64,000 bases of DNA, taken from assembly GCA_021413865.1 (NCBI GenBank), contig JAIOPN010000049.1:62001-126000 (forward strand). Reading direction: 5' to 3'. The notes under the pieces were generated by a model. That model was not told the origin of the DNA. It saw only the letters and a program-made list of their open reading frames with translations, and made no database searches. Position numbers and translations under genes: made by a program. The stretch is from Planctomycetota bacterium (GTDB taxonomy: Bacteria > Planctomycetota > Phycisphaerae > Phycisphaerales > Phycisphaeraceae). Shown piece by piece: positions 53,946 to 64,000 of the stretch (position 1 is its first letter; every line of letters starts with the position of its first letter).

Positions 53946-54133
53946 GGCGCGGGATGTGGAAGACCTGTCGCGGCGTTGCGGGCGTGGTCGAAAACCAGTA
54001 AAAGGTTGCAGTCCCGCGCTCGGGTCATAAAGAGTCGGCCGGTCGGTGGTTGTCTTTTGTCAGGGGATGGCGTGGTCATCCCGTCCGGTTACGACGCCCG
54101 GGTTGCCGCGCTGACGCAGCGAGTAAGCCGTTC
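53946..54133. other. Divergent region between cimA leader and cytochrome gene
   Basis: About 190 bases without a gene. TTGCAG at 54006-54011 with CATAAA at 54026-54031 (14-nt spacing) is a poor candidate promoter for the cytochrome gene. No repeat or operator was recognised. Confidence 0.3.
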
Positions 54134-57100
54134 ATGCCTGTACCCACAGAAACCTTCTGGAATATCAAGAAGCTCAACGTGGTCTTCGCGGCCAGCGCGG
54201 TGATCCTGTTGGGTTCGTTCCTCCTGTTGATCAAAGAGGACCAGAACGTCGCCTGGCGCGGGTATCAAAAGGACGCGCGGGTGTGGGACGCCGCGATGAC
54301 GACCGACGCCATCAAGTACGCCCTGAGCGCGTCGGACAAGGCGGAGTTGGAGAAGATCAAGACCGACATCGCACAGATCGGCGGCGAACTGGAGAAGGAC
54401 GAAAAGCTCAAAGAGCTGAACAAGAAAAAGGCTGACATCGAGGCCGGGATCAACATCGCAACGATGCCCGCCGCGACGATTAAGGGTCAGATCACCCCGC
54501 TGTCGCAATTGGTCGAGAAGGCCACCCTCGAGTTCGGCGCGGATCACGCTAAGACCAAGAAGCTGATGGCCGAGCTGAACGCGGCCAAGCAGAAGTCGGA
54601 CAAGGAAGAGGCGACGCTGGCCGCCCTGGACCGGCAACTGATCGAAACCAATAGCGCGATCGAGAAGGAGAAATCTCGCCTCAGCGCCCTGACCAAATCC
54701 CGCGACGACAAGCTCCGCCGCCTCAACTCGCTCGAGGAACGCCTGGCAAAGGTCAACCCGACCGGCGCGGCGTGGCTCGGCGAGCAGATCCGCAACGCCC
54801 CGCTCCAGGACTGGTTCAACCCCTCCCTGGCCGTGCAGCAGGTGGTCGTCCCCGACGTCCGCACCGACTTTAACTTCCTCACCACCGAGACAATCGATCG
54901 TTGCAGCACCTGCCACGTCAACATCGACAACCCGCGGTTCGAGGAGAAGGAGATCGTCTCCTTCGCCGAGCGACAGGTGGCGATGGGCGACGGTCAGGAC
55001 GTGGCGACGATCGACCCGCACAAGCCGGTCGTGATGCTCGGCTTCTGGGTCAACGCCGCGAAGCTGCGCGTCGCATCGGACGCGTACGGCATGCCTGCGT
55101 TGGCCAAGGGGGTAGAGGCTCTCAAGGCCGCGGCGCTGGACCGCGTCAAGGAACTCCGCGCCAAGGCGGGCATGTCGCCGCTGGCCGACAACGCGGACGT
55201 CGTCGCCGAGATCGAGTCGCTGCTCAAGCAGGGCGAGAGCCGCGACAAAGAAGAGAAGATCGCCGTCACCCGCGCCGAGTGGTACGCCCCGGCGGCCTAT
55301 TTCTTGACGGACCTGAAGGGCCTGCTTGAGAAGCAACTGAGCAAGGGCGAGTACCGCGAGCTGCGCGACCTCTACCGCCAGGAACTCATCGGGAGCTACA
55401 ACCACCTCCGCACCAACTCCTCGCAGGGCCTGCCGGCGCTGAGCGCCAACCCCGTGCTGATGGCACACCCGCGCCTCGATCTTTACGCCGACGCGGACTC
55501 GAAGCACCCCATGAAATCGATGGGCTGCACCGTGTGCCACGAGGGCTCGGGTCAGGAGACGGAGTTCAAGCACACCGCCCACACGCCGCGCGAGGTCTGG
55601 GTTGACGAGAAGACGGGCTCCCCGGTGCCGGCGTTCCTGATTCGACCGGCGGAGCCGAAGGTTCCTGTCGCGATGACGGTCTCCGCCGCACAGGTCCACG
55701 AGGCGCCGCGGGCTACCGCGGTGAAAGAGGGTGAAACAGGCGAACATGGCTTCACCTTCGACGACCTGAACCTGGCCAACCCGAACAACCCCAAGCCCTT
55801 CGCCCCGGACTCGGGCCACATCGAAGAGACCGCCGCCTATGTCTCTCCCGCCGCGGCCCGGGGCGAAAAGCCCCGCGGCGTCGTCCGCCAGGAGGCCTAC
55901 TGGACCAAGGCCTACCACTGGGAGCAGGTCCACTACATGCACTGGGAAAAGCCGATGAACTCGCAGGAGTTCATCGAGTCCAGTTGCAACAAGTGCCACA
56001 CGCAGGTGTTCGATCTGAAGGAATCGGCGCCCCGGCTGTTCGAGGGCCGCAAGCTCTTCGCCCAGCTCGGCTGCGCGAACTGCCACGCGGTTGATGCGGT
56101 CAAGGACCACCTCGACGTCAAGAAGGTCGGCCCGAGCCTCGTGCACGTGAAGGAAAAACTCTCCCCCACGATGATGTCGTCGTGGATCTGGGCGCCCAAG
56201 GCCTTCCGCCCGATGTCGCGGATGCCGCACTACTTCATGCTGGAGAACAACTCCACGCCGGTGGACATTCTCCGCACGCGAACCGAGGTCGCGGCGATCA
56301 CGCACTACCTCCAGCACTCGACGCCCGCCGAGGGCACCCCCGAGTACAAGCCCGAGCCGCCCCCCTCTACCCCCGGCGACGCCAAGGCCGGCCGCGCGGT
56401 ATTCAACTCCGTCGGCTGCCTGGCGTGCCATACCAACATGGCCGAGTCGGGTGAGAAGTGGATCGCCGAAGACCTGATCAAACGCACCGGCGTGTCGGCG
56501 GACGAGGCGAAGAAGCAGTACGACGCGATGGGCTACAACCAGCGGCACTGGTACGCGCTGGAGCACATCCCGGAGAAGCTCACGATCGTCGGCCCGGAGC
56601 TGTCGGGCGTGGGCACCAAGCTCAAGGCCGGCCGCACCGTGGATCAGGCCCGCGCGTGGGTATACGACTGGGTGCGCAATCCGCGCCACTACTCCAGCTA
56701 CACAATCATGCCCAGCCTGCGCCTCAGCGAGCAGGAGGCCAACGACCTGTCCGCCTATCTGCTCGCCCAGGAACGGCCGGACTACACGCCGGTTGACTTC
56801 ACGAATCTCGACGGCGACGGCAAGGCGATGCTGAACCAGATCGTCGGCGCCCTGCCCGACCCCGCGGGCAAGGTGAGCCTGCAATCGACGCAGGACGAGA
56901 AGCTCGAGTACGTCGGCCGGAAGATGATCGCCAACTACGGCTGCAACGGCTGCCACCTGATCAACGGCTTCGAGAACGCCGCCTCTGCCTGCGCCGAGCT
57001 GAACGAGTGGGGCCTGAAGGACCCGCACAAGCTGGACTTCGGCTACTTCGACCACGCCTACACCGCCGAGCGCAAGAACCGCATCGAGGTCTGGAAGGTC

Positions 57101-59512
57101 GCGCACGAGGGCCTCGCCTCCGACGCGCCGCACGTCAACTACCACAGCGCCGAGGCGCCCGAGGGCAAGCCCGCCGAGCTGCGAAAGGTCGCCATCCAAT
57201 GGGAGGAGATGGACCTGGAGCGCCGCCCGTGGCTGTACAACAAGCTGCACAACACGCGCATCTACGACCGCGGCCGCAAGCTTTTTGACTCCACGCAGGA
57301 CACCCCCGAGAAGGTCGCCGAGGCCGTCAAGGCGGGCAGCATTGACTTGGGCCGTCCATACGACAAGATCAAGATGCCCAAGTTCTTCCTCGCCGACGAC
57401 CAGGTCAAGGCCCTGGTGACGTTCGTGACCAGCGTGCGCAAGCCGCTGGTGAGCGACACGATCCAGCACAAGACCTATTCGGAGTCCCGGCTGCGCGTGG
57501 CGAGAGGCCGACAGGTGGCGACCGTGCTGAACTGCTACGGCTGCCACAACATCGAGGGTAACGAGGTCGCGATCCACAAGTACCTGGACGTCTTCAGCGA
57601 AGACGGCTCCGAGGACATGGCCAAGCTCAACGCGGCCGCGCCGCCGCGGCTGGTCGGCCAGGGGTCGCGCACCCAGCCGGACTGGCTGCACTACTTCCTC
57701 CGCAGCCCCTTCCCGCTCCGCCCGTGGCTCAAGGTCCGCATGCCCAGCTTCCCGTTCCACGACGAGCACGGCTCGCTCCTGGTGAGCGGGGCGGTGGACT
57801 ACTTCGCCGGCGCGAGCCAGGTGATGGCCGACGAGATCTCGCCGTGGGTCACGCAGATCGAAACCTACCGCGCGACGAACAAGGACGACGCCGACTGGTA
57901 CAAGGCCTCGGCCCTGGCCAAGCCGACCGATCAGCTCGCGGCGTTCATGGTGAAGGACGACCTGAACCACGCACGCGACTTTGACCCGCGGCAGGCGACG
58001 CAGGAAGACCTGCGGACGACGTGGGAGGGCGTGCTCAAGAGCGCTCAGTTCCTGACCAAGCTGAACCACGTTGAGTACCCGTTCCCCGTCACACCGCGGC
58101 CGAACCCCGACCCCGAGCGGTTCGCGCGGGGCAAGGCGCTCTACAGCGAGTTGAAGTGCTACCAGTGCCACGCGCTGGGCGATGAATCGCAGTTGCTGGC
58201 GTCCTGGAAGGCGACCTACGGCGAGTCCGCGGCCAAGGCCGCGCCGGCGCCGGCCGAGCCCGAGGACGCGGGCTACGGCGAGGAGCCGGCCAAGACCGGC
58301 GGCGATGAAGGCTACGGCGAGGAAGCCCCCGCCGCGGCGCCCAAGCCGACCGGGCCGGTCTATACCGCGCCGAACCTGGCCAACGTCGGCCGACGCCTGC
58401 AATGGAACTGGGTCAACAACTGGTTCCAGAACCCCGCGACCATCCAGCCGGGCACCAGCATGCCCCAGTGGTTCCCCGACGGCGTCTCGGCTTTCGACAA
58501 GTACCCACCCGAGCAGAAGGACCGGCTGCACTCCATGTACGGGTACACCGGCAAGGACCAGATCGCGGTCCTGATGGACTTCGTTTACGCCGCGGGCCTG
58601 CGGAACTACACCTACTTCCCGCCGGACTGGAAGGCGCCCGTCGGCGGCGCTGCCGAGGCCCCGGTTGAGATCAAGCCGATGGCTGCGCCGCCCGCAGCCA
58701 AGCCGACCGAAGAGAAGAAGGCCGAGCCCGCCGCCAAGGTGCCGACGGAACCGTCGGCCACGCCGGCTGCCACCCCGACGCCGGCCGCAACCGCGCCGCC
58801 CGCCGAGGTCCGCACCGAGCCGGACCATTCCACCATCGTGTTGAACGACGGAAAGGCTCCGTTCGAGGGAACCCGCGTGGTAGGCCTGGTGAAGTACGAC
58901 GGCAAGCTCCCGCGCCGCACCATCATCCGCATGGACGCCGACGCCCGCTGCATGGCCCAGCACAAGACCCGCCCGGTCGGCCAGGACCTGATCGTCAACC
59001 CGGACAAGACGCTGCAGAACGCGTTCATCTATGTGAGCCAGGGCCTGGAAGGCAAGATCGACGCCAAGCCGACCAACAAGGCCGAGTTAGACCAGAGCGG
59101 CTGCCTCTTCCTCCCGCACGTGCAGGGCGTGGTGGTGAATCAGGAACTCTTGATCCAGAACAACGACCCGACGATGCACAACGTGCACATGACCAGCCAG
59201 AAGAACGGCACGTTCAACATGAGCATGCCCGCGCCGGGGATGAAGGACGTTAAGAAGTTCGGCAAGCCCGAGATGGGCGTGTTGTTCAAGTGCGACGTCC
59301 ACCCCTGGATGCAGGCGTACCTGTACGTGATGCCGCACCCGTTCTTCGCGGTATCCGACGTGGAGGGGCGGTTTGAGATCAAGGGTCTCCCGCCCGGCCA
59401 GTACCAGTTGACGGCGATCCATGAGGACAAGGCGATCCCGCCGGTGACCTTCGCCGTGACGGTGGAGGCCAACACGTCCGTACGCTCGGACGTAACCTTG
59501 GTCCAAAAATGA
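54134..59512 (+). CDS. Giant octahaem c-type cytochrome with C-terminal cupredoxin-like domain
   Basis: This 1,792-residue protein has one membrane helix (about 15-35), then RGYQKDARVWD and a long coiled coil (about 60-225). Eight CxxCH haem motifs start at residues 257, 465, 618, 647, 762, 937, 1134 and 1342. A low-complexity linker follows near 1375-1410 (GYGEE twice) and a Pro/Ala linker near 1515-1565. The last ~220 residues resemble a blue-copper-like domain: His1682 (MHNVHM) and Cys1720-x2-His1723-x2-Met1726 (FKCDVHPWM). Next come a paralogue of this domain, coxB and coxA. It could therefore carry electrons from quinol oxidation to the oxidase outside the inner membrane. The ATG at 54134 is chosen by the MPVPTETFWNIKKLN start. 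Confidence 0.85.
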   Translation: MPVPTETFWNIKKLNVVFAASAVILLGSFLLLIKEDQNVAWRGYQKDARVWDAAMTTDAIKYALSASDKAELEKIKTDIAQIGGELEKDEKLKELNKKKADIEAGINIATMPAATIKGQITPLSQLVEKATLEFGADHAKTKKLMAELNAAKQKSDKEEATLAALDRQLIETNSAIEKEKSRLSALTKSRDDKLRRLNSLEERLAKVNPTGAAWLGEQIRNAPLQDWFNPSLAVQQVVVPDVRTDFNFLTTETIDRCSTCHVNIDNPRFEEKEIVSFAERQVAMGDGQDVATIDPHKPVVMLGFWVNAAKLRVASDAYGMPALAKGVEALKAAALDRVKELRAKAGMSPLADNADVVAEIESLLKQGESRDKEEKIAVTRAEWYAPAAYFLTDLKGLLEKQLSKGEYRELRDLYRQELIGSYNHLRTNSSQGLPALSANPVLMAHPRLDLYADADSKHPMKSMGCTVCHEGSGQETEFKHTAHTPREVWVDEKTGSPVPAFLIRPAEPKVPVAMTVSAAQVHEAPRATAVKEGETGEHGFTFDDLNLANPNNPKPFAPDSGHIEETAAYVSPAAARGEKPRGVVRQEAYWTKAYHWEQVHYMHWEKPMNSQEFIESSCNKCHTQVFDLKESAPRLFEGRKLFAQLGCANCHAVDAVKDHLDVKKVGPSLVHVKEKLSPTMMSSWIWAPKAFRPMSRMPHYFMLENNSTPVDILRTRTEVAAITHYLQHSTPAEGTPEYKPEPPPSTPGDAKAGRAVFNSVGCLACHTNMAESGEKWIAEDLIKRTGVSADEAKKQYDAMGYNQRHWYALEHIPEKLTIVGPELSGVGTKLKAGRTVDQARAWVYDWVRNPRHYSSYTIMPSLRLSEQEANDLSAYLLAQERPDYTPVDFTNLDGDGKAMLNQIVGALPDPAGKVSLQSTQDEKLEYVGRKMIANYGCNGCHLINGFENAASACAELNEWGLKDPHKLDFGYFDHAYTAERKNRIEVWKVAHEGLASDAPHVNYHSAEAPEGKPAELRKVAIQWEEMDLERRPWLYNKLHNTRIYDRGRKLFDSTQDTPEKVAEAVKAGSIDLGRPYDKIKMPKFFLADDQVKALVTFVTSVRKPLVSDTIQHKTYSESRLRVARGRQVATVLNCYGCHNIEGNEVAIHKYLDVFSEDGSEDMAKLNAAAPPRLVGQGSRTQPDWLHYFLRSPFPLRPWLKVRMPSFPFHDEHGSLLVSGAVDYFAGASQVMADEISPWVTQIETYRATNKDDADWYKASALAKPTDQLAAFMVKDDLNHARDFDPRQATQEDLRTTWEGVLKSAQFLTKLNHVEYPFPVTPRPNPDPERFARGKALYSELKCYQCHALGDESQLLASWKATYGESAAKAAPAPAEPEDAGYGEEPAKTGGDEGYGEEAPAAAPKPTGPVYTAPNLANVGRRLQWNWVNNWFQNPATIQPGTSMPQWFPDGVSAFDKYPPEQKDRLHSMYGYTGKDQIAVLMDFVYAAGLRNYTYFPPDWKAPVGGAAEAPVEIKPMAAPPAAKPTEEKKAEPAAKVPTEPSATPAATPTPAATAPPAEVRTEPDHSTIVLNDGKAPFEGTRVVGLVKYDGKLPRRTIIRMDADARCMAQHKTRPVGQDLIVNPDKTLQNAFIYVSQGLEGKIDAKPTNKAELDQSGCLFLPHVQGVVVNQELLIQNNDPTMHNVHMTSQKNGTFNMSMPAPGMKDVKKFGKPEMGVLFKCDVHPWMQAYLYVMPHPFFAVSDVEGRFEIKGLPPGQYQLTAIHEDKAIPPVTFAVTVEANTSVRSDVTLVQK

Positions 59513-59658
59513 GCTTGCGGCGGTTCGTTCGGGACCGGGGAAAAACGGACTGCCAGTGGATACGGGTTCGACAATCCAATAGGATACAAATCACTCCCGT
59601 GATCGCAGGGTAGCGCCACGGGTGATTGCAAGAGTTCCAGCTAACCGAGGAGCCGGTC
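59513..59658. other. Gap with an imperfect inverted repeat
   Basis: Contains an imperfect inverted repeat around 59590-59626 (ATCAC ... CCGTG with its complement CACGGGTGAT). It may be a weak terminator or processing site between the giant cytochrome and the cupredoxin gene. Confidence 0.35.
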
Positions 59659-60447
59659 ATGAAAACGGATTGGATGCGTCTAAGTGTCGTTGCGATGATT
59701 ACATGCGTCGGGCTGCTAAGCCCCGTTGCTCCTGTTCACGCCGAGGAAAGCGCGGCGAACATTGGCGGCGTGCACGACGGCAAGGGTGGCAGCATCACCG
59801 GCACCGTGAAGTTCAGCGGTGATCAGAAGAAGCCCAAGATCAACCGTGACATCGTCAACGACGCCTACTGCGGCAAGCAGCACAAGGACCCGGTTCTCGA
59901 CGAGACATTCGTTTGGGGCGACAACGGCACGCTCCAGAACGTGCTCGTCTATGTGAGCAAGGGCCTCGAGGGCAAGACCCTGCCCGCGCCCGAGGCCAAG
60001 GCTGAACTCGACCAGATCGGCTGCGTCTACGTCCCGCACGTTGTGGGCGTGGTGGTCAACCAGCCCCTGACGATCCTCAGCAACGACGAGACGCTGCACA
60101 ACGTACAGGCCAATTGCAAGTCCAACACCCCGTTCAACGAAGGCATGCCCGCCAAGGGCATGAAGCTGAGCAAGAAGTTCACCAAGCCCGAGTTGGGCAT
60201 GGTCTTCAAGTGCAACGTGCACGGCTGGATGACGGCGTACGTCCACGTCATGTCGAACCAGTTCTTCGCGGTCACGCAGAAGGCCGGCACGTTCGAGATC
60301 AAGGGCCTCCCGCCCGGCGAGTACGAGCTGAGTGTGTGGCACGAGCTCAAGGCCTTCCAGCCCGACCACCAGACGATCACGGTCAAGGTTGAAGAGGGCA
60401 AGGCGTCCGACGTGACGTTCACCTACTCGCCTCCCGCCAAGAAGTAA
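59659..60447 (+). CDS. Secreted cupredoxin-like protein, paralogue of the cytochrome C-terminus
   Basis: This 262-residue protein has a signal peptide (MRLSVVAMITCVGLLSPVAPVHA) cleaved near residue 28. The rest aligns end to end with the last ~220 residues of the upstream cytochrome. The shared parts are the cysteine-containing YCGKQHKDPV, NVLVYVSKGLEGK, IGCVYVPHVVGVVVNQ, His147 (TLHNVQA) and Cys185-x2-His188-x2-Met191 (FKCNVHGWM). Both end in a carboxypeptidase-regulatory-like beta-sandwich (FEIKGLPPGEYEL). The Cys-His-Met set suggests type 1 copper and periplasmic electron transfer. The ATG at 59659 has GAGGAG 7 nt upstream. Confidence 0.82.
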   Translation: MKTDWMRLSVVAMITCVGLLSPVAPVHAEESAANIGGVHDGKGGSITGTVKFSGDQKKPKINRDIVNDAYCGKQHKDPVLDETFVWGDNGTLQNVLVYVSKGLEGKTLPAPEAKAELDQIGCVYVPHVVGVVVNQPLTILSNDETLHNVQANCKSNTPFNEGMPAKGMKLSKKFTKPELGMVFKCNVHGWMTAYVHVMSNQFFAVTQKAGTFEIKGLPPGEYELSVWHELKAFQPDHQTITVKVEEGKASDVTFTYSPPAKK

Positions 60448-60486: not shown

Positions 60487-60492
60487 TATGAT
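60487..60492 (+). promoter_or_regulatory. -10 hexamer of coxBA
   Basis: TATGAT, 67 nt before the coxB TTG start. No convincing -35 is visible. Confidence 0.4.
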
Positions 60493-60559
60493 GCCGCCGG
60501 TGCAGACATCGCTCAGGGGCGTGTCGGCACACCATACGATTCCATCCAAGGAGCGAGCC

Positions 60560-61471
60560 TTGCGATCGCCAAGACCCACGCACGCTGTTTACGGTTTCCT
60601 GGTCGCCGCCGTGCTGATGCTAACGGCTTCGGCGGCGTTGGCGGGTGAGACCAGCTTCCGCCCGAGTTACTGGCTGCCCGAGAACGTCTTCCCACCCGCC
60701 ATGGTCGTGGACAAGATTTTCTACGGCATCCTCTACCTGACGCTGGTTGTGAACATCCTGGTCTTCATCTTCATGGCGATCTTCCTCGTGAAGTTCCGCC
60801 ACCGCGAGGGCCGGCACGCCCGCTTCATCCATGGCAACAACAGGCTCGAGACGGTCTGGACGATCGTCCCCGCCGTCATCCTGGCGATGACCGCCGTGCT
60901 CAGCGAGTCCTCCTGGTCGAACATCAAGAGCCCCTCGGCCAGCATGGCGACCGACCCGAGCGTGATGCACATCGAGGTCATCGGCCGGCAGTTCGCCTGG
61001 TATTTCCACTACCCCGGCAAGGACGGCAAGCTCGGCGTGCGCAACCCGACCAAGGTCAACCCGCTCAGCAGCATCCCCGAGGAACTGGTGGGCCTGGACC
61101 GCAACGACCCCGACTCCGCCGACGACCTGCTCACCACCCGCCTGGTCGTCCCGGTGAAACAGAAGGTTTACGCCAACGTGACCAGCGTGGACGTGATCCA
61201 CAGCTTCTTCCTGCCCAACTTCCGCATCAAGCAGGACGCGATGCCCGGCCTCCGGGCGCGGGTGTGGCTCGAAGCGACCAAGACCAGCGCCGAGGTCATC
61301 GGCACCAAGCCCGACGGTACGCCCAAGCCCTTCGACATCGTCTGCGCCGAACTCTGCGGCCAGGGCCATTACACGATGCGCGGTGAGCTCTACGTCGTCT
61401 CCCCCGCTGAATACGAGAAGTTCATCGCCGAAGAGGCCGGGATGCTCACCCCCGCCGGCGAAGCGTACTGA
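60560..61471 (+). CDS. coxB: Cytochrome c oxidase subunit II
   Basis: Subunit II accepts electrons at its CuA centre. The 303-residue protein has a signal peptide (to about ALAGE, 29), two membrane helices (about 50-78 and 92-116), and a periplasmic cupredoxin domain. The CuA ligands are His214 (DVIHSFFLPNF) and Cys262-x3-Cys266-x3-His270-x2-Met273 (CAELCGQGHYTM). There is no fused cytochrome c at the C-terminus, unlike many caa3 enzymes. The TTG at 60560 has AAGGAG 7 nt upstream and gives a proper signal peptide. Earlier in-frame starts at 60488 and 60500 were judged less likely. Confidence 0.93.
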   Translation: MRSPRPTHAVYGFLVAAVLMLTASAALAGETSFRPSYWLPENVFPPAMVVDKIFYGILYLTLVVNILVFIFMAIFLVKFRHREGRHARFIHGNNRLETVWTIVPAVILAMTAVLSESSWSNIKSPSASMATDPSVMHIEVIGRQFAWYFHYPGKDGKLGVRNPTKVNPLSSIPEELVGLDRNDPDSADDLLTTRLVVPVKQKVYANVTSVDVIHSFFLPNFRIKQDAMPGLRARVWLEATKTSAEVIGTKPDGTPKPFDIVCAELCGQGHYTMRGELYVVSPAEYEKFIAEEAGMLTPAGEAY

Positions 61472-61558: not shown

Positions 61559-64000
61559 ATGTCCACCCACGACAACGATCACGGACACGATGACCACGGC
61601 GGCGGCCACCACGGCCCGACCCACTTCTGGTCCAAGTACGTCTTCTCCACAGACCACAAGATCATCGGCATCCAGTTCCTCTTCTCCGGCCTGCTGTTCG
61701 TCATCCTCGGCGGCCTGCTGGCGCTGGGGGTCCGCTATCAGCTCGCCTGGCCCATGCAGGACGTCCCCTACGCCAAGCTCCTCCCCGGCAAGATGACCAG
61801 CAGCGCCCCTGAGTCGAACCTCGCGCTCTGGAACAACGGCCACCCGGTCACGCTCAAGGAAGATCAACTCGTCAACGGCGCGAAGATCCCCGCCGGGGCA
61901 CAGGCGTTCCTGCACGGCTTCCCCGAGCGGCTGGCCGTCACCATCCAGCCCGGCACGGTGGTCAAGGACGACGCCGGCGAGCGCACGCTCACCGAGCCGC
62001 TCAACGCCAGAGTCGATCGCTCCGAGGTGATGGGTGATTACAACAACCACAAGACCGAGGCCCGCGCCATCCCCGGTACGGTCGTGACCCTCGATGAGAA
62101 GGGTGGCGAGCACCGGGTGACGCTCGAGGCGACCGAGTACATGGAGCCAGGCGCCACGACGCCGACGCGTTCCACCGGCCATATCCTCTTGGCGATCCGC
62201 AGCGCGGACACCGTGGTCGCGCTGAATATCCCGGCGCAGAAAGTCCCCGCCCAGCCCGAGCCGGGCCAGGCCCAGATCGATGTCCCCGCGGCCTCCGCCC
62301 AGGCCGTGCCCGCCGCCAACGTGGAGTACACCAAGGAGACCCTCTCCTCCCAGGCCTACCTCCAGCTCTTCACCATGCACGCGTCGATCATGATCTTCTT
62401 CGTGATCATCCCCACCCTCGTGGGCGCGTTCGGCAACTTCGTCGTGCCGATCATGATCGGCGCCCGCGACATGGCGTTCCCCAAGCTCAACGCCGTCTCC
62501 TTCTGGATCAGCATCCCCGCCGGCCTGCTCATGCTCATCAGCTTCTGGACCGACGCGGGCTCGGCGTTCGGCGGGTGGACCAGCTACCCCACGCTCTCCA
62601 CCGCCGCCTACGCACCCAACATCGGCACCACCCTCTGGATCATCGGCGTGGGCCTGGTCGGCTTCTCCTCCGTCATCGGCGCCCTCAACTACGTCACCAC
62701 GATCATCAACATGCGTGCCCCGGGCATGGGTATGTTCCGCATGCCGCTCACCGTCTGGTCGATCCTCATCACCGCGACGCTGGCGCTCTTCTCCACGCCC
62801 GTGCTCACCGCCGCCATGGTGCTCCTGCTCCTGGACCGCACACTGGGCACGATGTTCTTCTCGCCGACCCTGCACGTGATGGTCAACGGGGTGGACACCG
62901 TCCGCATCGCCGGTGGTCAGCCGCTGATGTGGCAGCACCTCTTCTGGTTCTACTCCCACCCGGCGGTGTACATCATGATCCTGCCCGCCATGGGCATCGT
63001 CAGCGACGTGCTCTCGACCTTCTCGCGCAAGCCGGTCTTCGGCTACAAGCCCATGGTCTTCGCCATCTGCGGCATCGCGGGCCTGGGCTTCATCGTCTGG
63101 GGCCACCACATGTTCCAGTCCGGCATGAACCCCGTGCTGGGCACAACGTTCATGGCCTCGACGATCATGATCGCCGTCCCCTCGGCGATCAAAACCTTCA
63201 ACTGGCTGGGCACCCTCTGGGGCGGCAACATCAAGTTCACCCCCGCCATGCTCAACGCCCTGGCCTTCGTGAGCATGTTCGTCATCGGCGGCCTCTCGGG
63301 CATCTTCATGGCCTCCGCCCCCGTTGACGTGTACATCCACGATACCTACTTCATCGTCGCCCACATCCACTACGTCCTCTTCGGCGGCTCCATGTTCGGC
63401 ATCTTCGCCGGCATCTACTACTGGTTCCCCAAGATGTTCGGCAGGCAGCTCAACCAGAAGTGGGGCGTCATCCATTTCTGGATGAACATCATTGCCTTCA
63501 ACGGCACCTTCTTCACCATGCACATCCTGGGCGTCGGCGGCCACCCGCGCCGCTACGCCTCGATCATGGAATACCCCACCCTCCAGCACCTCCAGCCGCT
63601 CAACGTCTTCATGACCATCTGTGCCATGATGCTGGGCATGGCGCAGGTCCCGTTCTTCTACAACTTCTTCACCTGCCTCCCGCGCAAGCTCGGCCGGGCG
63701 ATGGCCGCATTCTTCATCATCATGCTCACCGCGCCGGCGGTCATCGGCCTGTCCGCGTGGGACATGTGGGCCGGTTCGGGCACGTTCCTCGGCCGTCAGT
63801 TCTACGCCCTCGTGGGCATGGTCCCCTCCGCCGGCGACGTCGCCGCCCACTTCAGCCAGACCCAGGTCACCCTGGGGTACATCTTCCTGCTGGGCGCGAT
63901 CATCGTGATCTCGGGCCTGATGTTCCGCAGCTACACCACCGGCCCGCGCTGGACGATCGCCTGCAGCGTTCTCCCGCTGCTCGCCCTGATCCTGACGATC
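61559..64000 (+). CDS. coxA: Cytochrome c oxidase subunit I with large insertion (3' end outside window)
   Basis: Haem-copper oxidase catalytic subunit; 814 residues are visible and the frame is still open at the edge. The N-terminus is His/Asp-rich (residues 4-22). Helix I follows near 40-58. A soluble stretch of about 200 residues (about 66-265) precedes helix II with the haem a ligand His274 (FTMHASIMIFF). Later come His467 and Tyr471 (YSHPAVYIM), CuB His516-His517 (WGHHMF), and the haem ligands His602 and His604 (VAHIHYV). Ala469 replaces the D-channel Glu, and the preceding Tyr-Ser fits A2-type oxidases such as Thermus caa3. The insertion lies on the periplasmic side, where normal enzymes have ~40 residues. 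The ATG is 87 bases after coxB. Confidence 0.93.
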   Translation, partial: MSTHDNDHGHDDHGGGHHGPTHFWSKYVFSTDHKIIGIQFLFSGLLFVILGGLLALGVRYQLAWPMQDVPYAKLLPGKMTSSAPESNLALWNNGHPVTLKEDQLVNGAKIPAGAQAFLHGFPERLAVTIQPGTVVKDDAGERTLTEPLNARVDRSEVMGDYNNHKTEARAIPGTVVTLDEKGGEHRVTLEATEYMEPGATTPTRSTGHILLAIRSADTVVALNIPAQKVPAQPEPGQAQIDVPAASAQAVPAANVEYTKETLSSQAYLQLFTMHASIMIFFVIIPTLVGAFGNFVVPIMIGARDMAFPKLNAVSFWISIPAGLLMLISFWTDAGSAFGGWTSYPTLSTAAYAPNIGTTLWIIGVGLVGFSSVIGALNYVTTIINMRAPGMGMFRMPLTVWSILITATLALFSTPVLTAAMVLLLLDRTLGTMFFSPTLHVMVNGVDTVRIAGGQPLMWQHLFWFYSHPAVYIMILPAMGIVSDVLSTFSRKPVFGYKPMVFAICGIAGLGFIVWGHHMFQSGMNPVLGTTFMASTIMIAVPSAIKTFNWLGTLWGGNIKFTPAMLNALAFVSMFVIGGLSGIFMASAPVDVYIHDTYFIVAHIHYVLFGGSMFGIFAGIYYWFPKMFGRQLNQKWGVIHFWMNIIAFNGTFFTMHILGVGGHPRRYASIMEYPTLQHLQPLNVFMTICAMMLGMAQVPFFYNFFTCLPRKLGRAMAAFFIIMLTAPAVIGLSAWDMWAGSGTFLGRQFYALVGMVPSAGDVAAHFSQTQVTLGYIFLLGAIIVISGLMFRSYTTGPRWTIACSVLPLLALILTI

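Follow-up and report, generated by a model that had tools for sequence, protein, structure and literature searches.

Several electron-transport chains use a blue copper protein instead of cytochrome c to link a quinol-oxidising complex with its acceptor; examples are the chains of plastocyanin (b6f to photosystem I), sulfocyanin, and auracyanin. In the three-domain copper nitrite reductases, the cupredoxin is a tethered donor. The Rieske/cytochrome b complexes of Kuenenia are reported to combine a b6-like four-helix cytochrome b and a subunit IV with a cytochrome c of six or eight haems that replaces cytochrome f; one of these multihaem cytochromes is a large protein whose long helices wrap around the complex (PMC12954380). 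Carriers of the blue-copper type, cupredoxins attached by a tether, and Rieske/cytochrome b complexes that contain multihaem cytochromes are already known, each separately. The window analysed here, 64,000 nucleotides of contig JAIOPN010000049.1 from a Planctomycetota bacterium (positions 62,001 to 126,000), holds a giant gene for an octahaem cytochrome c that ends in a cupredoxin plus transthyretin-like module, followed by a free gene for a paralogue of that module and then by cytochrome c oxidase (cox) genes. Full-text searches of open-licence papers brought up no description of an octahaem-cupredoxin fusion with a free paralogue in a cox operon, which is weak evidence of novelty. We consider it probable that the module serves as a secreted electron carrier of the blue-copper type and is the acceptor of a b6f-like complex in which the octahaem cytochrome replaces cytochrome f.

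The giant open reading frame lies on the plus strand, as do all features of the window below unless stated otherwise, and runs from an ATG at 54134 to a stop at 59512 (54134..59512); the free gene, encoding 262 amino acids, occupies 59659..60447. By BLASTP, the last 222 residues of the cytochrome align end to end with the mature part of the free protein, with 108/222 identical (49%) and an E value of 2e-63, far above chance. The first-pass annotation, made from the sequence of the window, had described two modules here that are paralogous over their whole length, and this observation is confirmed. The fused module comprises 224 amino acids (58838..59509). Its copper loop reads CDVHPWM, that of the free copy CNVHGWM, and the upstream His of both stands in "HNV"; the C-x2-H-x2-M motif and upstream His that had been ascribed to both copies are thus seen in each. 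The common C-terminal ending also noted earlier is a transthyretin-like half (Pfam PF13620), and the label cupredoxin-like therefore holds for the part that gives a profile match to amicyanin and blue-copper domains, but not for the whole length. That one copy is tethered and the other secreted is supported by the sequence. The free protein starts with a hydrophobic, signal-peptide-like stretch (residues 1-28, 59659-59742), whereas the cytochrome has a predicted N-terminal membrane helix, LNVVFAASAVILLGSFLLLI (54173..54232), both recognised by eye, and a similar hydrophobic stretch is visible in the N-termini of cytochrome orthologues. Between the octahaem part and the tail lies a low-complexity linker of 76 amino acids (58610..58837), 82% of which are P/A/E/T/K/S/G/Q; it is 70-120 amino acids long in 16/16 orthologues. 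No promoter or terminator was detected by a scan of the stretch that separates the copies. The three-domain copper nitrite reductases (9cck, 6hbe) resemble this arrangement in that a cupredoxin domain is fused to a redox enzyme, but here the fusion partner is an octahaem cytochrome and a free paralogue adjoins it.

Fused and free copies occur together in 18 of the 61 genomes searched, the window's own included; in one of these 18 (G018), a contig end truncates the fused copy, which was taken as fused by assumption. The giant cytochrome itself was matched in 20 of the 61. In G002 and G020 the cytochrome is present and the tail was not seen, and neither was counted; the contig of G002 stops just past the match, and in G020 the match covers 404 residues from the N-terminal part. 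The genome of the window also encodes a third, more distant module paralogue (38% identity) on another contig, C37. One putative relative of the module (L070) was rejected because the matched stretch carries no module; we take it to be a HIT-like protein.

The predicted type-1 copper ligands are His 59177, Cys 59291, His 59300, and Met 59309 in the fused copy (59177..59311) and His 60097, Cys 60211, His 60220, and Met 60229 in the free copy (60097..60231; all positions are codon starts). The four ligand columns are H/C/H/M in 107/107 related modules, and His116, Cys154, His157, Trp159, and Met160 are invariant in an alignment of 46 copies (18 fused and 28 free). All 18 fused copies retain all four ligand columns, as expected if a copper site in the tail is under selection. 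The exact ligand-loop spacing occurs in 104 of the 107 modules, the other three having C-x3-H in place of C-x2-H (L132 12587 and L135 4824, each directly after an octahaem gene, and L174 6174). Two Cys residues beyond the copper site (free-copy Cys71 and Cys122; window positions 59869 and 60022) are kept in 103 and 107 of the 107 modules, respectively, and could form a disulfide or a second metal site.

A profile of the 46 modules, searched against the PDB, gave matches to the cupredoxin at the C-terminus of a copper nitrite reductase (9cck, E 3e-6), to a blue type-1 copper domain (5fc9, 1.4e-4), and to amicyanin (1sfd, 2.2e-4); all three matches cover the cupredoxin part, in the middle of the profile, and the 9cck alignment brings its C-x2-H-x2-M and upstream His into register with those of the module. 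The last part of the profile matches NOMO2, EMC7, and cell-wall-anchored proteins, and its first ~70-85 residues match nothing. PF13620 matches 45/46 members at E values up to 0.1; of the window's copies, it matches the tail searched alone (E 9e-8, 32.8 bits, with a cut-off of 32.3) and, below that cut-off, the free copy (E 3e-6, 27.9 bits). Because Pfam sees only this half, profile annotation calls these proteins "carboxypeptidase regulatory-like" and nothing more. From these matches, the module is predicted to be a cupredoxin of amicyanin loop type joined to a transthyretin-like, carboxypeptidase-regulatory-like half. We suspect that the cupredoxin may be inserted into the transthyretin-like domain, whose first strand the opening "G-x-I-x-G-x-V" of the module resembles. 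With amicyanin and other type-1 blue copper proteins (1sfd, 5fc9), the module shares, by sequence profile, the cupredoxin core, the upstream His, and the C-x2-H-x2-M loop; unlike them, it adds the transthyretin-like half and an N-terminal segment of about 70-85 residues, and it has other gene neighbours. By neighbours and family match, it is not amicyanin proper. No mau (methylamine dehydrogenase) genes were among the neighbours identified, and the curated amicyanin family TIGR02657 (NCBIfam) matched 4/46 members, at a best E value of 0.0042, and did not match the window's own modules.

Directly downstream of the free copy is the gene for CoxB, subunit II of cytochrome c oxidase (60488..61471; COX2 E 2.4e-11, COX2_TM E 2.9e-11), with the CuA motif CAELCGQGHYTM and no haem-c domain. 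The order fused copy, free copy, CoxB is conserved in 11 of the 12 genomes of the window's family (f1) that have a fused copy. The exception, G025, has its free copies ahead of two other CoxB genes; it contains three separate CoxB-CoxA loci (L061, L062, L063), and a different module stands ahead of each, the fused one in one case. In a second family of the same order, f5, the fused copy stands apart, and 5/6 free copies lie directly before CoxB. Elsewhere in the phylum, CoxB is the first or second recognised downstream gene of the module in 27/40 loci, one locus per genome (that of its best module) from 40 genomes not in f1 or f5, taken by rank rather than at random. These three counts took no modules covering <150 profile positions.

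The body of the giant cytochrome contains eight haem-binding CxxCH motifs (54902..58171, starting at 54902, 55526, 55985, 56072, 56417, 56942, 57533, and 58157), and eight motifs of the form C-x2-CH or C-x4-CH are found in 16/16 complete orthologues. Pfam Cytochrom_C matches it in four stretches (E 2.5e-21), and a coiled-coil-like segment gives SMC matches at residues 58-208. A profile of the cytochrome body detects shorter homologues across the phylum, most of them about 1040-1600 amino acids long. Within the window's taxonomic order, 17/17 octahaem cytochromes have the tail, and in 0/17 are Rieske/cytochrome b (bc) genes present in the retrieved stretch; outside the order, 0/26 octahaem homologues have an in-frame module, and 24/26 have same-strand Rieske, CytB, or CytB_C genes in the retrieved stretch, although these 26 (14 chosen by the cytochrome profile, 12 by module match) are not a random sample and include a contig-edge fragment (L171) and a weak match (L145). 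Among the genomes examined, the tail is confined to this one order. In other lineages, the module is a neighbouring gene: a free module follows the octahaem cytochrome and is itself followed by CoxB in L133, L159, L162, L169, and L172, and in L131 and L128/L130 the arrangement is the same except that the gene for a dihaem cytochrome or another module intervenes. The full layouts (L128, L130, L131, L159, L172) run Rieske - CytB - CytB_C - octahaem - module - (module) - (dihaem cytochrome) - CoxB - CoxA. A domain that is fused in one lineage and an adjacent gene in others points to a shared function.

The bc genes of the window's genome lie on a different contig, C66, and comprise a ferredoxin-Rieske fusion, a cytochrome b of four-helix size, and a separate second part; any role of the giant cytochrome in a bc complex is for this reason invisible at its own locus. 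In the fusion (L073 6119-9322), the ferredoxin-like part, by sequence, precedes the Rieske part, with the split cytochrome b genes alongside. There is no cytochrome c1 gene beside the bc genes on C66. A search of the genome for NrfD, which is the membrane subunit in alternative complex III, found none, and the genome thus shows no sign of that complex. Given its relationship to the homologues in other lineages, the best reading of the giant cytochrome is an octahaem subunit belonging to a Rieske/cytochrome b complex and, likened by description, a relative of the Kuenenia multihaem subunit. The Kuenenia complexes (Kustd1480-1485, Kuste4569-4574; PMC12954380) resemble those of the phylum relatives in having a split b6-like cytochrome b with a second cytochrome-b part, a Rieske protein, and a large multihaem cytochrome c; the cytochrome in the window differs from what is described there in having a cupredoxin tail and in being encoded away from the bc genes, at the head of a cox operon.

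If the module is such a carrier, the likely route would be from quinol to the Rieske protein, the octahaem cytochrome, the cupredoxin, and the CuA site of CoxB, with electrons running in that direction; the cupredoxin would stand to the octahaem cytochrome as plastocyanin does to cytochrome f. Free cupredoxin genes would do the carrier's job in most of the phylum. In the order of the window, the module would have been duplicated and one copy joined by a flexible linker to the cytochrome C-terminus, where it may act as a mobile yet tethered exit site of the octahaem cytochrome, while the other copy, just upstream of coxB, would stay free as the mobile carrier. The plastocyanin, sulfocyanin, and auracyanin chains offer an analogy; unlike them, this one has no photosystem and no archaeal Sox complex. 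If true, the proposal identifies what carries electrons from complex III to complex IV in a large bacterial group, and it would also provide a natural experiment, with an adjacent gene in most lineages and a fused domain in one, on what is gained by tethering a mobile carrier to its donor. A wider version, which we hold only tentatively, is that respiration across the phylum is "plastocyanin-style": a dedicated cupredoxin-transthyretin carrier, not soluble cytochrome c, would lead from b6f-like octahaem complexes to CuA oxidases, sister copies would serve NirK or other acceptors, and in one order the tethered copy would load the free copy at the oxidase in a two-copper relay.

Several modules have neighbours other than CoxB. 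The C37 paralogue (L006 6285-8906) lies between genes for an Rrf2 regulator and a NirK-like two-domain multicopper oxidase, with a ScdA-type protein nearby; the multicopper oxidase is read as NirK-type from its two multicopper-oxidase Pfam domains, its size, and its neighbours. The pairing of module and NirK-like gene recurs in G007 and G032, so that nitrite reductase may be fed by this carrier family too; the counterpart in G010 stops at a contig end. The C37 paralogue and its counterparts form a clade of their own (support 99) in a tree of the 107 modules, in which the free copy of the window falls within the CoxB-adjacent clade. In families f38, f56, and f60, COX2 was mostly not found, and the module comes after the octahaem cytochrome (L186, together with bc genes; L182, L185, L190, L193), before a bd-like oxidase subunit, or both; this subunit is PF01654 in the two cases tested, with haem proteins behind it. 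In an Acidobacteria locus, the module is beside a dihaem cytochrome gene. The octahaem/bc side seems to be the more constant partner, and the acceptor to vary. In f38 and f60 (L177, L178, L182, L190, and others), clusters that start with the module also encode a bd-like oxidase subunit, cytochromes with one or two haems, and a protein of EB_dh type; they look like the nxr-type clusters of anammox bacteria or nitrite oxidisers. The resemblance is to the same set of genes as described for one such cluster (PMC3578206), and the "cupredoxin-like" or "blue copper" proteins of nxr clusters can be likened to the module by cluster description (PMC3578206, PMC11791136); the nxr clusters differ in serving nitrite oxidation, not a CuA oxidase.

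A number of results weigh against the proposed carrier role. Within this order, the bc genes are unlinked from the cytochrome, and their partnership is drawn by homology alone. CoxB was not in the expected place in 13 of the 40 surveyed loci, in a sample that was ranked and not random. Across 294 genomes of the phylum, module and COX2 showed no association (both in 139, module only in 45, COX2 only in 87, neither in 23; Fisher p 0.57), in a COX2 scan that misses some genes (G152 was scored "module only" despite a CoxB-like gene adjoining its module, L169); many oxidases thus manage without the module, and the module serves further partners. Single-sequence Pfam scans of the window's copies saw the transthyretin-like half alone and gave no cupredoxin match, and over the 46 members the matches were weak, 11 to Copper-bind and 9 to Cupredoxin_1. 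AlphaFold models, with the window copies and the Acidobacteria copy (L069) as the only sequences, had predicted local distance difference test (pLDDT) scores of 38 and 36, too low to bear on the fold, for which the support comes from the sequence profile. It had been suggested that a free copy could shuttle between the tethered cytochrome and CoxB; the link of the free copy to CoxB stands by gene order, but a shuttle for CoxB only is too narrow, as the module adjoins other partners and occurs without detected COX2.

The main functional rivals of the carrier are copper delivery and a structural tail. As a periplasmic copper chaperone or store for building the CuA and NirK copper sites, with the fusion merely bringing it near the oxidase, the module would have reason to lie next to copper enzymes, as it often does (CoxB, and NirK-like genes in three genomes), and its two additional conserved Cys columns (107 and 103 of 107) are otherwise unaccounted for. 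However, in its loop and its set of ligands it matches type-1 electron-transfer sites, its profile matches amicyanin and blue-copper domains, and it is fused to or adjoins octahaem cytochromes; it also lies beside haem enzymes with no recognised copper enzyme (the Acidobacteria dihaem cytochrome gene and the bd-like oxidase genes), and we judge copper delivery unlikely. A tail that is a docking or structural domain, its transthyretin-like half holding the free cupredoxin or CoxB near the cytochrome and its own copper site being minor, would suit the consistent differences between fused and free copies, which are mostly in that half (Trp188, Phe194, loop 198-199, Arg212), so that the tail may have altered surface contacts; it is made improbable by the retention of every ligand column in all fused copies. 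It is very doubtful that the free copy serves some other acceptor, such as a nitrite reductase or peroxidase, in place of the adjoining CoxB. The lack of genome-level co-occurrence with COX2 and the further copies that adjoin NirK-like, bd-like, and dihaem cytochrome genes speak for this, but the C37 paralogue is already directly before the NirK-like gene, in its separate clade, and the window's free copy groups with the CoxB-adjacent modules.

The history of the fusion is a separate matter, on which the loop and residue differences give mixed signals. Rather than branching with different families, the order's fused and CoxB-side free copies make up one clade of 39 rows in the 107-row tree, with a Shimodaira-Hasegawa-like approximate likelihood ratio test (SH-aLRT) value of 86; its sister (joint support 80) consists of modules mostly following an octahaem cytochrome, from families f26 and f28. 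The tandem module pairs of G177 and G154 are of separate origin in this tree. A 46-row tree was built without two fragments of one stop-split gene (L060) and without the partial row of G043; in it, f1 gives one clade of 12 fused copies (100/99) and another of 15 free copies (96/93), and the six fused and six free copies of f5 are each a clade. The row of G018, truncated by the end of its contig (L059 4882/4885), was entered as fused by assumption in both trees and in the topology tests. It is possible, though somewhat doubtful, that f1 and f5 represent two independent fusion or duplication events, a question of history alone that is compatible with a carrier role. The best trees join the f1 fused copies with the f1 free copies and leave the f5 fused copies apart, and a loop extension that almost every free copy of the two families has, but few other modules, is present in part in the f1 fused copies and absent from those of f5. 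Conversely, that extension is common to the free copies of both families, and Arg212, which is not among the common states of free copies or other modules, is shared by 17/18 fused copies; by approximately unbiased (AU) tests, neither a single clade of all fused copies (p 0.088) nor one of all free copies (p 0.052) was rejected. A single origin of the fusion is accordingly neither shown nor rejected.

The remaining features of the locus concern the oxidase and the opposite strand. CoxB is followed by CoxA, oxidase subunit I (61559..64000; COX1 E 1.4e-142), which extends past the window and has 1003 amino acids; downstream of it, outside the window, are CtaA-like, CtaB, CoxC, CoxD, and ABC-transporter genes. 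CoxA is unusually long (window 61559-64000, L049 1560-4571), and the COX1 match begins at residue 259, which points to a long extra stretch near its N-terminus. Antisense to the giant cytochrome, on the minus strand at 54089-58963, is an open frame of 1624 residues that most likely arises from G+C-rich codon usage.

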